DNA of 64,000 bases. Origin: Thermocoleostomius sinensis A174. GTDB taxonomy: Bacteria > Cyanobacteriota > Cyanobacteriia > Elainellales > Elainellaceae. The notes beneath the pieces were generated by a model. That model saw nothing but the letters and a program-made list of their open reading frames with translations, was not told the DNA's origin and made no database searches. Every line of letters begins with the position of its first letter. Positions within the stretch are counted from its first letter, which is position 1. Positions 4,882-51,493 of this stretch are shown here, piece after piece. The translations under genes were made by a program, and so were the position numbers. The stretch is from the NCBI RefSeq assembly GCF_026802175.1, contig NZ_CP113797.1, positions 2,581,026 to 2,645,025 on the forward strand. The letters are read 5' to 3'.

Positions 4882-6324
4882 ATGCAATCTCCCCTCGATT
4901 CTGACTTTGATTCTGGTACGGCGGATTTGGGGGCAACCCTGGGAGCCACCATGCGCACCGAAACTGACAGCATGGGAGCCATCGATGTTCCAGCCGATCG
5001 CTACTGGGGAGCGCAAACCCAACGATCGCTGCGTTACTTCGCAATTGGGAGCGATCTCATGCCCAGAGAAATGATTCGAGCCATTGGCATCCTCAAAAAA
5101 GCGGCGGCAATTGTCAATCAGCAGTTAGGAAAATTACCAGTTGAAATAAGTGATCTGATTGTGCAGGCGGCCAATGAGGTAATTGACGGCAAATTAGACG
5201 ATCACTTTCCCCTGCGCATTTGGCAAACAGGCAGCGGTACTCAAACCAACATGAATGCCAATGAGGTAATTGCCAATCGAGCAATCGAATTAGCAGGCGG
5301 GGTGCTGGGCAGCAAAGATCCGGTGCACCCTAATGATCACGTCAACATGTCGCAATCCTCCAACGATACCTTTCCCACAGCGATGCACATTGCGGCGATC
5401 GAGGAAATTCATCACCAGCTATTGCCCAGAGTAGAGGCGTTGAAACAGGCACTGGCTGCTAAGCAACATGCCTTTGCCTCCATCATCAAAATTGGCCGCA
5501 CTCATTTGATGGATGCCGTACCGCTAACGTTGGGGCAAGAATTTTCTGCCTACGTTTCGCAGCTAGAGAAAGACATTGACCGCATTCAAGCGACATTGCC
5601 CGATTTGTACGAATTGGCGATCGGGGGCACAGCGGTGGGCACGGGACTGAATACCCACCCGGAGTTTGCCGAGCGAGTGGCCCAGGAAATTGCGGATCTG
5701 ACTGGATTACCATTTGTCACCGCTCCTAACAAATTCGCTGCATTAGCCGCCCACGATGCAATTGCCATGACCAGTGGAGCCTTGAAAACATTAGCAGGGT
5801 CATTAATGAAAATTGCCAACGATCTGCGTTGGATGGGGTCAGGCCCACGCTGCGGCTTAGGAGAACTGCTGTTGCCTGCTAATGAACCCGGCTCGTCGAT
5901 TATGCCCGGCAAGGTCAATCCCACCCAGTGTGAAGCAATGACGATGGTATGTGTACAGGTGTTGGGCAACGATACGGCGATCGGCATTGCCGCCACTCAA
6001 GGCAACTTTGAGTTGAACGTATTCAAACCGCTGATGATTTTCAATTTGCTGAACTCAATTCGGCTCTTAGCTGATGCTTGCGCCACGTTCACGGATTATT
6101 TGGTGGTCGGAATTCAGCCCAATCTTCAGCAAATTCAGTCCTTTTTAACCAACTCTCTGATGTTAGTAACGGCGCTCAATCCTCACATCGGCTATGACAA
6201 TGCTGCCCAAGTAGCTAAAAAAGCCTATGCCGAACATAAAACCCTGCGGGAAGCGTGTGTGGAACTGGGTTTCTTAAGCGGAGAAGACTTCGATCGGCTG
6301 GTGCGACCTGAAGAAATGATTTAG
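4882..6324 (+). CDS. fumC: Fumarate hydratase class II
   Basis: Converts fumarate and L-malate reversibly in the cytoplasm, part of the (branched) TCA cycle of cyanobacteria, and recycles fumarate from purine and arginine synthesis. The family signature [10 protein letters not shown] sits near residue 337, with SSNDTFPT and [12 protein letters not shown] earlier, all typical of the fumarase/aspartase superfamily. Two starts are possible. ATG 4882 has a good AAGGAG eight bases upstream and adds 23 residues. ATG 4951 ([11 protein letters not shown]) is where FumC proteins normally begin and has GGGAG five bases upstream. The long form is 480 residues, the short 457, and usual FumC is about 460-467. 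The catalytic core looks intact. Confidence 0.95.
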
Positions 6325-43737: not shown

Positions 43738-44211
43738 TTATGCGGGGTCACAGCGAATTTCAACAAGAAATCCATCGGGGTCATAAAAGTAAATGCCGCG
43801 CCCGGTGGGGCGAGTCACTGGACCATGATCAATTGTCACTTGATGATGGTTCAAAACCTCGACAGCATGATCAAACAAGTCTGGAGCAATATCAAAGGCA
43901 AGATGACCTGCACGGGTAAATTCACGGGTAGGGTTTGGATCGGGAGGTGTTAAGTTGGGTTTCCAGAAGAGATCAATCACAGTGCCATCAGGAGTGACAA
44001 AGTTGGCGGCTTCACCTGCTTCAAATAAAGTTTTCAGCGTTTCTGGTACTTCATCGCCTTGCAGTTCTCGCAAACCCAAAATGCTGCCATAGAAATGTCG
44101 AGACGCCTGCATATCTCGCACATTTAGCGCAATGTGATGTACCCGCCGCAGCATGGTTGGCAATAGGGCGGGAAAACTGGGTTGAGAGGTCGATTGCGAC
44201 AGGTGAGACAT
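43738..44211 (-). CDS. VOC superfamily (glyoxalase/dioxygenase-fold) protein
   Basis: A 157-residue single VOC module: RRVHHIALNVRDMQASRHFYGSILGL starts the fold, GHLAFDI gives a second metal-ligand histidine, and F-Y-D-P-D-G-F-L-V-E-I the C-terminal Glu. Metal-dependent glyoxalase, fosfomycin-resistance and dioxygenase enzymes share this fold, so the reaction cannot be told. ATG 44154 (MLRRVHHIAL) is a possible shorter start. It is convergent with the MarR gene. Confidence 0.85.
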   Translation of the reverse strand: MSHLSQSTSQPSFPALLPTMLRRVHHIALNVRDMQASRHFYGSILGLRELQGDEVPETLKTLFEAGEAANFVTPDGTVIDLFWKPNLTPPDPNPTREFTRAGHLAFDIAPDLFDHAVEVLNHHQVTIDHGPVTRPTGRGIYFYDPDGFLVEIRCDPA

Positions 44212-46649: not shown

Positions 46650-47996
46650 TCAAAAGATAAACCCCAACTGTACGTCCCACTCACTGTCGTGACGCACGAT
46701 CGCAATTTCACGAATGAATTCACGAAAATAGAAGCGCCGCTCGGTTTCTGATAGATCTAACCAGAATTGGGGAATGGAAACGACCTGAGCGATCGTTTTC
46801 AAGTTCACAGGCGGCAGTTGCGCCAGTTGAGTTTGCAGAGCGGCCATTTCGGTACGAAGTTTGTACGATCGCAACTCGGCAGTATCAGGATCGAGAATTC
46901 CAGTTGTCACCAAATCCGGGAGTTGGTCTAGAATTGCTTGCTTGGCGCTGAGTTGGGCTGTTAAACCTTGTTTGATTCGATCGATATCCGGTAGCGCTGC
47001 CGCGGATACGGCAGGCGGCAGGTCTTGACAAATGCATTGGATCGTGCGCTTCAACACCTGATCATAGGGAATCGATCGACACTTGGGCTGACGTAAACAG
47101 GCCGTCGGCGTTAGGTAGAGATACTCTTTGCCCGGTTGGCTACTCCGTCGGGCAGCAACACGACTGACTTTCATAGACGATTGGCACGCGCCACATTTGA
47201 CTAATCCCGATAGCGAACGAGGGGCGCTGGCCGTGCGGGGAGGCATCCGTCGATTTCGTCGCAACAATCGATCGACTTGGGCAGCTTCGTCGCGCGAAAT
47301 GATCGCCGCATGGGTATTTTGCACCACATCGCCGGTTTGGTACACCAAATCCCCTCGATACACTGGGCTAGTGAGCCATCGTTTACCCGTAGATGCCGAG
47401 ATTTTCTTGTTGTACTTTTTCTGTAAAAACCGCACACTTCCCCGTAATGAGCCATAGAGCAAAAAATGTTCGACAAACTCTTTGACGATAGGGGCGGTGG
47501 TGCGATCGATCGTATACCGCTCTTTACCACGTTTGTAGCCATAGGGCGCTTTACCGGGTGGAGGCAGTGCTTTGATGCGATTGCGGGCATGACCTTGGCG
47601 CAGGCGACGACGCTGTTGACTCGTTTGAATGTTTGCTAGCAAGTAGAACAAGTCCGATCGCTGGATTGAGTGATCCCCGGCTCCGATGGTTTCATCTAAG
47701 GCAATCAGATTAATGTTAAGACGCTCTAACGTTGCTAAGCAGTCACTCACGGCTTGAATCGAATCGCCCAGTTCTTCTAAGCGTCGCACCACCAAGTAAG
47801 CCACCGTTTCGGTTTCACAATCGTTCAACAATTGCTGTAACTGCTGACGACTGCCAAGGTCTTGATAAATCCGATCGATCGATCGATTGACTCCCTCCCA
47901 GATTGATACATCCGGTACAGACTCTAGCCACGGATCGGAGTATGAATAAGCAAATGTCTGTCCATTAGCAGTAGACACCTGTTCAGCAGTAGACAT
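46650..47996 (-). CDS. Large serine recombinase homologue with degenerate catalytic domain
   Basis: A 448-residue protein from ATG 47996 (MSTAEQVSTANGQTFAYSY). The middle matches the Recombinase domain of large serine recombinases such as XisF (PPPGKAPYGYKRGKERYTID, SVRFLQKKYNKKI, TGKRWLTSPVYRGDLV). A zinc-ribbon block (C-G-A-C-Q...C-L-R-Q-P-K-C) follows, then a coiled coil. In the N-terminal resolvase domain the expected Y-x-R-V-S reads Y-S-Y-S-D, and the L-D-R-L-x-R motif reads L-E-E-L-G-D. The nucleophile Ser and three key Arg/Asp residues are therefore not where they should be. It probably binds DNA without cutting. An element end or att site is not visible nearby. Confidence 0.75.
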   Translation of the reverse strand: MSTAEQVSTANGQTFAYSYSDPWLESVPDVSIWEGVNRSIDRIYQDLGSRQQLQQLLNDCETETVAYLVVRRLEELGDSIQAVSDCLATLERLNINLIALDETIGAGDHSIQRSDLFYLLANIQTSQQRRRLRQGHARNRIKALPPPGKAPYGYKRGKERYTIDRTTAPIVKEFVEHFLLYGSLRGSVRFLQKKYNKKISASTGKRWLTSPVYRGDLVYQTGDVVQNTHAAIISRDEAAQVDRLLRRNRRMPPRTASAPRSLSGLVKCGACQSSMKVSRVAARRSSQPGKEYLYLTPTACLRQPKCRSIPYDQVLKRTIQCICQDLPPAVSAAALPDIDRIKQGLTAQLSAKQAILDQLPDLVTTGILDPDTAELRSYKLRTEMAALQTQLAQLPPVNLKTIAQVVSIPQFWLDLSETERRFYFREFIREIAIVRHDSEWDVQLGFIF

Positions 47997-48065
47997 AAGT
48001 GGTCTGAGGTTGTAGGCAACACGGTACAGTATTGATGATGCGAATTTGAAACAATTTATTAGCAA

Positions 48066-48430: not shown

Positions 48431-51400
48431 ATGAGTTCAACTCTTCAATTTTCGGATGATGCTTTTCGTTCTGGAACCACCACCGAGGAGAAAATCAATC
48501 AGGAGTTTACCCCAGACTCGGCCCCGGATCTGTTTTTGCGCTATCGTCTCAAGATTGTAGAGGATCTATGGGAAGAAGTGCTTCAGCAGGAATGTGGACT
48601 GCCATTAGTCAATCTGCTGAGACAGTTGCGATCGCTCTATTCTCCGGAAGGGGAACTCTCTGAAATCAAGGAAATTGAAGCCGTCAAGATGGTGGAAAAC
48701 CTCGATCTCAATGAGGCAATTCGGGCGGCTCGAGCCTTTGCACTTTACTTTCAATTAATCAACATCGTTGAACAGCATTACGAACAGCGGGGGCAACAGC
48801 AGCAATATCGCGCTGCCTACGATCAGCCTACCCCCACTAATTTCCTGGATGAAGATCATCTACCCGATGCATCTGATCCAGAAGCAAAGGGCAGTACGCT
48901 TCATGCCAATTTTCTAGAAAAGAGCTTGGCTCCGTCTCCGCGCCGAGAAGCTGGAACGTTTCAATCGCTGTTTCCTAAGCTGCATCGCTTGAATGTGCCG
49001 CCGCGAGCCATTCAAACGCTGATTGATCAGCTAGATGTGCGCTTGGTGTTCACGGCCCATCCCACCGAAATTGTGCGCCATACTATTCGCGATAAACAGC
49101 GCCGCATTGCCAAAATTCTGCGTCAACTCGATCGCATCGATGAAGGACAGTTGTCATCCTGGGAGGCTGAGGAACTGCGGGCCCAACTCACCGAGGAAAT
49201 TCGCTTGTGGTGGCGTACCGATGAACTGCACCAATTTAAGCCCACGGTGTTAGATGAAGTAGATTTCACGCTGCACTATTTTCAAGAAGTACTATTTGAT
49301 ACAATTCCCCAACTGTATCATCGCTTTTGCCGCGCCCTCAGCACTACGTTTCCACGGCTGCACCCACCCAAACACAATTTCTGTAAGTTTGGCTCTTGGG
49401 TGGGTTCCGATCGTGACGGTAACCCCTCTGTGACTCCTGAAGTCACCTGGAAAACGGCTTGCTATCAGCGCAATCTGGTTTTAGGTAAATACATTCAATC
49501 CATTAAAAATCTGACAAATTTGCTGAGTCTATCGCTGCACTGGAGTGATGTGTTACCAGAATTGCTGGAATCACTGGAACACGATCAGGCCCAACTGCCA
49601 GATGTATATGAAAAGCTGGCAATTCGCTATCGTCAAGAACCCTATCGCCTGAAATTAGCCTATATTCAAAAGCGCCTAGAGAACACCCACGATCGCAGCC
49701 TACAGCTCTACAACGGTGATTATTCGCAAATTGATCTGATTGATACTAACCCAGCGGCCATTTACCGCTCAGGTGATGAGTTTTTGGCAGAATTGAACTT
49801 GATTCGCCGCAACTTGGAAGAAACCGGACTCAGTTGCCGCGATTTGGATAACCTGATCTGTCAAGCAGAAATTTATGGTTTTAACCTAGCCCATCTTGAT
49901 ATTCGTCAAGAGAGTTCGCGTCACTCGGATACTTTGACTGAGATCAGCGACTATTTGCAAATCTTGCCGACGCCGTACAACGATCTCTCCGAAGAACAAA
50001 AGGTGCTGTGGCTGGCGACAGAACTGCAAACGCGGCGGCCGCTGATTCCCACTGAACTCTTTTTCTCAGATAAAGCCAACGAGACGATTCAAACCTTTCG
50101 CATGGTGCGTAAGCTTCAGCAAGAGTTTGGTGTGGAAATTTGCCAAACCTATATCATTAGCATGAGCCACCATGTCAGCGATCTGCTAGAAGTGCTGCTG
50201 CTCGCCAAAGAAGCAGGACTCTATGACCCTGCTACGGGTATTAGCACGATTCAAGTAGTGCCGCTGTTTGAAACCGTAGAAGATTTGCAGCGAGCGCCGT
50301 CTGTAATGCAGTCGCTGTTTGATTTGCCCCTTTACCACACATTGCTCAGGGGCGGGTTTGCGGCCCAGAACACTGGGAACTTTGCGCCGCCGCTTCAGGA
50401 AGTCATGCTGGGCTATTCTGATAGCAACAAGGATTCGGGCTTCCTCAGCAGCAATTGGGAAATTCACAAAGCTCAACAGTCGCTGCAAGCCATTTCCGAA
50501 AAAACGGGCATTGCCATTCGCATCTTTCACGGGCGCGGTGGGTCGGTCGGTCGGGGCGGTGGCCCTGCCTATGATGCCATCTTGGCTCAACCTGGACGCA
50601 GCATTGACGGGCGCATTAAAATCACCGAGCAGGGAGAAGTGTTGGCATCTAAGTACAATTTGCCAGAACTCGCACTCTATAACCTGGAAACGATCGCCAC
50701 GGCCGTGTTACAGGCCAGCCTGTTACGCAGCGGGTTTGATGATATTCAACCGTGGCGCGAAATCATGGAAGAATTGGCCGCTCGATCGCGATCGCACTAT
50801 CGCAATTTAATCTACGAGCAGCCGGATTTCCTCGACTTTTTCCTGAATGTGACGCCGATCGAAGAAATCAGCCAACTGCAAATTAGTTCTCGTCCGGCTC
50901 GACGTAGCGGCGGCAAGAAAGATCTCTCCAGTCTCCGAGCCATTCCTTGGGTGTTTAGCTGGACGCAAATTCGCGTACTACTGCCATCCTGGTATGGTGT
51001 CGGCACAGCGCTAAAGAGCTTTTTGGATGAAGAACCCGAAGAAAACCTGAAGCTATTGCGTTGTTTCTACTATAAGTGGCCGTTCTTCAAGATGGTGATC
51101 TCGAAGTGCGAAATGACTCTCTCGAAAGTAGACTTGAACATCGCTCACCACTATGTAGAAGAGTTGACTCATCCGGACGATCGTGATCGGTTCGAGCGAG
51201 TCTTTCAGCAAATTGTCAATGAATACTACCTCACTCGCGAATTAGTCTTGCGCATTACTGGACACGAGCGGTTACTAGATGGCGATCCTGACTTACAGCG
51301 CTCGGTGCAACTGCGCAACAGTACAATTGTGCCGCTGGGCTTTCTGCAAGTTTCCTTAGTGAAACGATTACGCCAACATAAAGCCAGTGCCAGTGCTGGA

Positions 51401-51493
51401 GCTATTCGATCGCGCTATAGCCGGGGTGAACTGTTGCGTGGGGCCCTGCTCACCATTAACGGCATTGCGGCTGGAATGCGGAATACTGGCTGA
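48431..51493 (+). CDS. ppc: Phosphoenolpyruvate carboxylase
   Basis: Fixes bicarbonate onto PEP to give oxaloacetate, anaplerotic and part of C4-type flux in cyanobacteria. A 1020-residue cyanobacterial-type enzyme. The catalytic signatures are intact: [13 protein letters not shown] (catalytic His), [17 protein letters not shown] and [14 protein letters not shown]. The C-terminus ends RNTG as usual. An N-terminal extension of about 190 residues before the LVFTAHPTE region is normal for the cyanobacterial group. No neighbour suggests regulation; the recombinase homologue is divergent. Confidence 0.97.

Follow-up and report, generated by a model that had tools for sequence, protein, structure and literature searches.

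In large serine recombinases, the enzyme juxtaposes two sites on DNA. Among them, the phage-type integrases YokA, phiC31, Bxb1 and A118 are active enzymes, TnpX is an active transposon resolvase, and XisF is the recombinase for excision of the fdxN element in cyanobacteria. The element-borne xis genes of heterocyst formers have been surveyed (PMC4874684), and the passages of that survey consulted make no mention of a protein of the type described here. Similarly, the open-access literature searched contained no report of a serine recombinase that is inactive and yet conserved among cyanobacteria. Here, we present an analysis of P0001, a homologue of these enzymes encoded on a 64-kb stretch of DNA from Thermocoleostomius sinensis A174 (hereafter, the window, meaning all 64,000 nucleotides that were analyzed), and of its orthologues across the phylum.

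Domain layout of P0001 and loss of the active site

P0001 is encoded by a minus-strand ORF of 448 codons, with an ATG at 47996 and a stop at 46650, and the frame extends open in the 5' direction as far as a TTG at 48065 (Table 1). The Pfam domains Resolvase N, Recombinase (residues 166-248) and Zn_ribbon_recom (residues 262-316) were found in this order, each above its cut-off. Based on these three domains, P0001 is by sequence a member of the large serine recombinase family, and the recombinase and zinc-ribbon parts claimed by an earlier sequence-only reading of this DNA are present. The Resolvase N match, however, aligns only residues 48-140 of P0001 with positions 47-140 of the profile and leaves the part with the nucleophile unaligned. 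The top NCBIfam match was XisF (NF041201) with 152.2 bits over residues 49-433; the cut-off for this equivalog is 375 bits, and P0001 does not reach it.

Searching solved structures by sequence gave weak matches, with E values from 4e-4 to 0.04, among them YokA (E 0.03) and the integrase of A118 (E 4e-4). A structure model built on P0001 together with four relatives was of low confidence (pLDDT 63, pTM 0.35), with residues 41-100 at 77-86 per ten-residue block. Its strands and helices are those that a serine recombinase should have, and its top Foldseek match was 9dxd (E 4.5e-13), with whole-chain TM-scores of only ~0.2. In this low-confidence model, the predicted fold is serine-integrase-like. 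By family likeness, residues 113-140 would form the dimer helix, and the two helices predicted between residues 338 and 393 probably correspond to the coiled coil that large serine recombinases possess. Rfam and tRNA scans over the 64-kb window gave no matches; a promoter scan returned 3 sites compared with 2.9 in shuffles, and a terminator scan 0 compared with 2.8.

Table 1. Position and basis of the features of the P0001 locus (coordinates of the window)
Feature	Position	Strand	Basis
P0001, large serine recombinase homologue without catalytic residues	46650..47996	-	ORF, Pfam, homologue search
Former catalytic core, residues 13-112, resolvase-like fold predicted	47661..47960	-	Pfam, model, Foldseek, charge
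Y-S-Y-S-D in place of Y-x-R-V-S, residues 17-21	47934..47948	-	Translation and alignment
L-E-E-L-G-D in place of L-D-R-L-x-R, residues 73-78	47763..47780	-	Translation and alignment
Long helix, putative helix E equivalent, residues 113-140	47577..47660	-	Predicted helix 113-142
Recombinase DNA-binding domain (PF07508), residues 166-248	47253..47501	-	Pfam; lowest column entropy among the regions compared
Recombinase zinc ribbon (PF13408), residues 262-316	47049..47213	-	Pfam; conserved Cys
Two predicted long helices, residues 338-393	46818..46985	-	Predicted helices 338-364 and 370-393
Conserved C-terminal tail, residues 399-448	46653..46802	-	Conservation
ppc (PEP carboxylase), divergent neighbor in the window, not a fixed partner	48431..51493	+	Neighbor count

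The sequence-only reading held that two catalytic motifs are replaced in P0001 and that the nucleophile and several essential Arg are missing. Translation of 46650-47996 confirmed both replacements. To see whether orthologues share them, we aligned 122 orthologues (118 from a phylum genome search and four named records) with 13 cyanobacterial proteins of the XisF type. The 13 derive from 16 loci and are those with an ORF matching P0001 by blastp at E<1e-5, which biases the set towards similar proteins; two of them are fragments and were omitted from the tree and the charge comparison (n = 11). L005 did not qualify as a relative at E 1e-10 and was excluded from the 122, while L113, L116, L119 and L122, which have truncated, split or odd frames, were included in the residue counts and excluded from the conservation, tree and charge analyses. 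Residues are named according to gamma-delta resolvase numbering.

Y6, R8, S10, D36, R45, D67 and R68 are each present in all 13 XisF-type proteins and R71 in 12, and 12 of the 13 have all eight residues intact. Among the 122 orthologues, Y6, D36 and R45 are retained (in 120, 121 and 116, respectively), whereas R8 (0), S10 (4), D67 (11), R68 (1) and R71 (0) are not. R8 is replaced by Tyr in 115 orthologues, R68 by Glu or Asp in 115, and R71 by Asp or Glu in 102. No orthologue has the nucleophilic Ser together with R8, R68 and R71, and 117 have none of these four. The changes are, therefore, common to the orthologues, and catalytic residues are lost throughout the sampled clade.

An alternative alignment restoring Ser and Arg was looked for and not found. 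Between residues 13 and 140, Ser occurs in at least 50 of the 122 rows only at columns 79, 84, 106 and 129, arguing that a conserved nucleophile close to the N-terminus is not recovered in any register. Four orthologues of family f2 (L079, L091, L097 and L116) read Y-S-Y-R-L-S by way of a short insert, which puts a Ser in the nucleophile column; this looks like a superficial return of R-x-S shifted by one. Two others, L105 and L119, have a Ser in the nucleophile position in the ungapped register, and L119 lacks a real N-domain. None of these six Ser-bearing rows has an Arg at the R8, R68 or R71 column. By sequence, the orthologues lack the residue set of an active serine recombinase, and DNA recombination by P0001 through the known serine chemistry is very unlikely. 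The long-branch orthologue L123 (G241, family f17) reads W-D-R-L-G-D, retaining D67 and R68; it looks like an intermediate stage of active-site loss, as expected of descent from an active enzyme.

Distribution, descent and constraint

We searched 386 cyanobacterial genomes with P0001, counting E<=1e-20 as a match and scoring up to four candidates per genome. The gene was found in 118 genomes from 70 of 143 genera, at a single locus in each; the two matches in each of G066 and G229 are adjoining pieces of one locus. PsaA/PsaB, used as a marker of photosynthesis (photosystem I), matched in 183 of the 386 genomes. All 118 P0001-positive genomes are among these 183, where they cover 27 out of 29 families. 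Family f19 accounts for 57 of the 65 photosynthetic genomes that lack a match (0/57 positive); its genomes are small, and by their size it may be the Prochlorococcus/Synechococcus family. Outside f19, the gene is present in 118 of 126 PsaA/PsaB-positive genomes, the eight exceptions being all three f26 genomes, G326 and G374 (f11, present in 4/6), G085 (f17, 1/2), and G048 and G103 (f6, 40/42).

A profile search was used as a loss check in 26 gene-negative genomes (the 8 photosynthetic non-f19 genomes, 3 from f5 without PsaA/PsaB, 9 from f19 and 6 outside the class), and nothing matched in 18 of them. G326 has a 49-residue piece close to a contig start; G013, G342 and G201 gave weak partial matches; and the matches in G048, like the principal match in G103, were to their own XisF-type genes. 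In G103 (L149), there is a deletion at the site that is occupied in its relative G064, with ~106 nt left as an N-terminal remnant. In G147 and G268 (L143 and L147), neither of which has PsaA/PsaB, decayed pieces with stops lie at the syntenic site of their congener G143. The deletion and the decayed pieces demonstrate that the gene can be lost. Two of the genomes with a match, G066 and G159, have a broken frame. The best match is free of internal stops in 116 of the 118; G195 and G159 have one stop each, and in G195 a frame of 427 amino acids is open.

No copy on a mobile element was seen among the plasmid, phage and viral contig records searched. Three of 72,556 plasmid records matched P0001, all partially and none over more than 80% of the query. 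Among 50,697 phages, 19 matched, nine of them covering at least 80% of the query, and the 12 matches listed had identities of 21.5-24.6%, as ordinary integrases would. Viral contigs gave 104 pattern matches, none of which was confirmed.

The tree was built with a quick method and a plain model and came with long-branch warnings. In this tree, the orthologues and the 11 XisF-type rows are separated with an SH-aLRT support of 100. With 28 groups as labels (26 families, the four named rows and XisF), 30 changes are required on the tree, compared with a minimum of 27 and a mean of 85.5 in shuffles; the 26 family labels by themselves require 27. None of the families f1, f2, f5, f6, f8 and f18 can be cut off from the rest of the tree at a single branch. 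Going by the near-minimal number of label changes and the six split families, the gene has descended mostly along family lines, if not perfectly so. Close orthologue pairs are under purifying selection: from 143 such pairs, 28 disjoint ones were picked, and dN/dS stayed below 0.35 in every one of them for all three regions compared.

Conservation is unevenly spread over the protein. Mean column entropy was 0.91 in the Recombinase domain, 0.95 in the linker, 1.45 in the zinc ribbon, 1.55 in the tail and 1.86 in the N-domain, which is thus the least conserved region and yet is retained in nearly all orthologues. The zinc ligands Cys 268, 271 and 300 are present in 118/118 orthologues and Cys 306 in 116/118. 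Between the 118 orthologues and the 11 XisF-type proteins, mean net charge differs in opposite directions in two regions: it is -9.0 vs +0.5 in the N-core (residues 13-112) and +10.2 vs +4.0 in the Recombinase domain. One orthologue (positions 4941-5966 of locus L119, from G014) starts past the N-domain, and no N-domain was found in the frames just upstream; this absence concerns one of the five genomes of the genus. The remainder of L119 is 54-55% identical to three congeners, among which L099 is 95% identical to L100 and 56% to L110. Because dS is saturated, this similarity shows only that L119 has drifted no further than the full-length L110.

Neighborhood and upstream regions

The sequence-only reading raised the possibility that the gene is fixed next to ppc. 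We counted neighbors at 121 of the 122 loci (L120 was not assigned to the target cluster), using mechanical ORFs and, for L006-L035, flanks of ~1.5 kb at most. ppc is the divergent neighbor at only six loci (L001-L004, the window locus L006, and L074), which form one group in the tree with a support of 79. The gene is not fixed next to ppc, and on this count we reject a ppc-linked role.

The commonest neighbor, at 51 of the 121 loci and in 13 of 27 families, is a small gene of the VOC family (glyoxalase fold) that lies upstream in the same orientation. It adjoins the P0001 gene in 45 cases and lies one mechanical ORF further in six. The gap is within 20 nt in 21 of the 51 cases, including eight 4-nt overlaps, and exceeds 100 nt in 15; with such mixed lengths, only some of these pairs are likely to form an operon. 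In the window's genome, the best match to the upstream VOC gene (55% identity) is located elsewhere. The window also has a VOC/glyoxalase-family gene at 43738-44211 (minus strand), beyond the dus gene, which is a weaker relative of the common VOC neighbor. No neighbor gene is common to all lineages in the 121 loci. The P0001 gene itself is flanked by ppc and the Dus gene, and among the neighboring genes inspected, none was seen to be interrupted. It is the sole PF07508 match and the sole PF00239 match in the window's genome. The Synechococcus elongatus genome, used as a control, has a PF07508 match too, which may be the orthologue.

Gapped 4+4-mer counts in the regions upstream of the 122 orthologues returned mostly A+T-rich words and GCGATCGC, and no convincing candidate binding site. 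The best word counted 29 against 15 in shuffles, which did not keep the kinship of these related sequences. GCGATCGC, the HIP1 palindrome, occurs upstream of 29 of the 122 orthologues.

Possible functions and comparison with known systems

P0001 is probably a domesticated, non-recombining large serine recombinase that most likely still binds DNA. The DNA-binding parts are conserved and charge is up there and down in the N-domain, arguing that the protein is retained for DNA binding. The sequence-only reading proposed a repurposed DNA-binding protein, and this part of it is favored by the replacements common to the orthologues and by the better conservation of the DNA-binding part (0.91 vs 1.86). 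From such features, we infer DNA binding, dimerization, targets and a biological role as follows: the Recombinase domain and zinc ribbon would probably hold the protein on a specific site, subunits would probably pair through the long helix and coiled-coil region, and the former catalytic domain, now acidic, would probably serve as a dimerization or protein-contact module. P0001 would then be a chromosomal DNA-binding factor, either a regulator or a nucleoid factor, with no part in a mobile element. The single chromosomal gene in most photosynthetic non-f19 genomes suggests that the conversion to a DNA-binding protein happened long ago. A more specific version is that the enzyme was disarmed early in photosynthetic cyanobacteria and then became a site-specific, chromosome-bound regulator or nucleoid factor. 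In this version, to which we give an even chance, the active site was charge-reversed, the catalytic domain acidified and the DNA-binding domain reinforced, and near-core inheritance followed.

The copy in G014, which lacks the N-domain and is otherwise 54-55% identical to its congeners, also counts for DNA binding. Several observations count against it. The gene is lost or broken in G103, G147, G268, G066 and G159, and none of the 57 PsaA/PsaB-positive f19 genomes has a match. Y6, D36 and R45 are still conserved, which DNA binding alone would not necessarily demand, and even the least conserved N-domain is kept in nearly all orthologues. Finally, the structure model is weak and the upstream search gave no convincing site.

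Alternatively, as the sequence-only reading also allowed with its chromosome-organizing factor, P0001 may be no site-specific regulator and instead a structural chromosome factor whose coiled-coil region bridges or loops DNA. The two-site bridging by large serine recombinases and the long helices predicted at residues 338-393 are in line with this, as is the lack of a neighbor common to all lineages, so that targets may be elsewhere. However, the gene can be lost, and we consider a structural role unlikely. Changed chemistry in the N-domain seems less probable still: either the acids around the former active site (21, 46, 75 and 78) would bind metal and make the domain a nuclease, or a new nucleophile would be provided by Tyr 17 or 19. 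Tyr17 is present in 120/122 rows, a Tyr at column 19 in 115/122, and the four acids in 94, 118, 112 and 100 of 118 rows, respectively. On the other hand, the acids occur jointly in only 77/118, Tyr17 and Asp46 are likewise retained in the 13 XisF-type proteins, DNA contact is not what an acidic domain should favor, and the whole N-domain is lost in one genome (G014).

We also consider it highly improbable that P0001 assists an active recombinase as an accessory or directionality factor, binding att-like sites or pairing with an active relative and thereby modulating excision. The layout of a large serine recombinase is preserved, and eight of the ten genomes with XisF-type genes (E<=1e-60) match the P0001 family, G014 by its N-terminally truncated form. 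However, XisF-type genes, which were the partners surveyed across the phylum (as opposed to tyrosine recombinases, XisH/XisI or other active large serine recombinases), occur in only 10 of 146 genomes sampled, and two of the ten (G048 and G103) have no intact P0001 gene. The window's genome, moreover, offers no second serine recombinase as a partner. For these reasons, the excision regulator put forward by the sequence-only reading is not our lead reading. Lastly, a decaying pseudogene or old mobile-element remnant, which the five lost or broken genes might suggest, is rejected in view of the open frames (stop-free in 116/118, and open over 427 amino acids in G195), the purifying selection in 28/28 pairs and the descent largely by family.

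On the reading of P0001 as a non-recombining DNA-binding protein, much of a bacterial phylum has apparently retained a site-specific recombinase for the sake of its DNA-binding part. Should the targets of P0001 be found, the protein would be an example of a mobile-element enzyme that became a housekeeping chromosome factor; and if the disarmed-regulator version is true, the clade would represent a recombinase-derived class of bacterial DNA-binding factor. The protein is widespread in cyanobacteria and testable in model strains.

Among the known systems, the TnpX large resolvase (2mhc) is a weak fold match to the catalytic domain of P0001 (E 0.025). The top Foldseek matches of the P0001 model are the phage-type serine integrases 9dxd and 9dxh (YokA), 9rah (phiC31), 9iu2 (Bxb1) and 4kis (A118); identities in these alignments are only 13-18%, and P0001, unlike these integrases, lacks the nucleophile and most catalytic Arg. 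XisF resembles P0001 in domain layout, in being from the same phylum and as its best NCBIfam match. In contrast to XisF, P0001 scores far below the 375-bit cut-off, has lost the catalytic residues and stands apart in the tree with full support (100). For the P0001 clade, the labels "recombinase" or "XisF" would, therefore, mislead.
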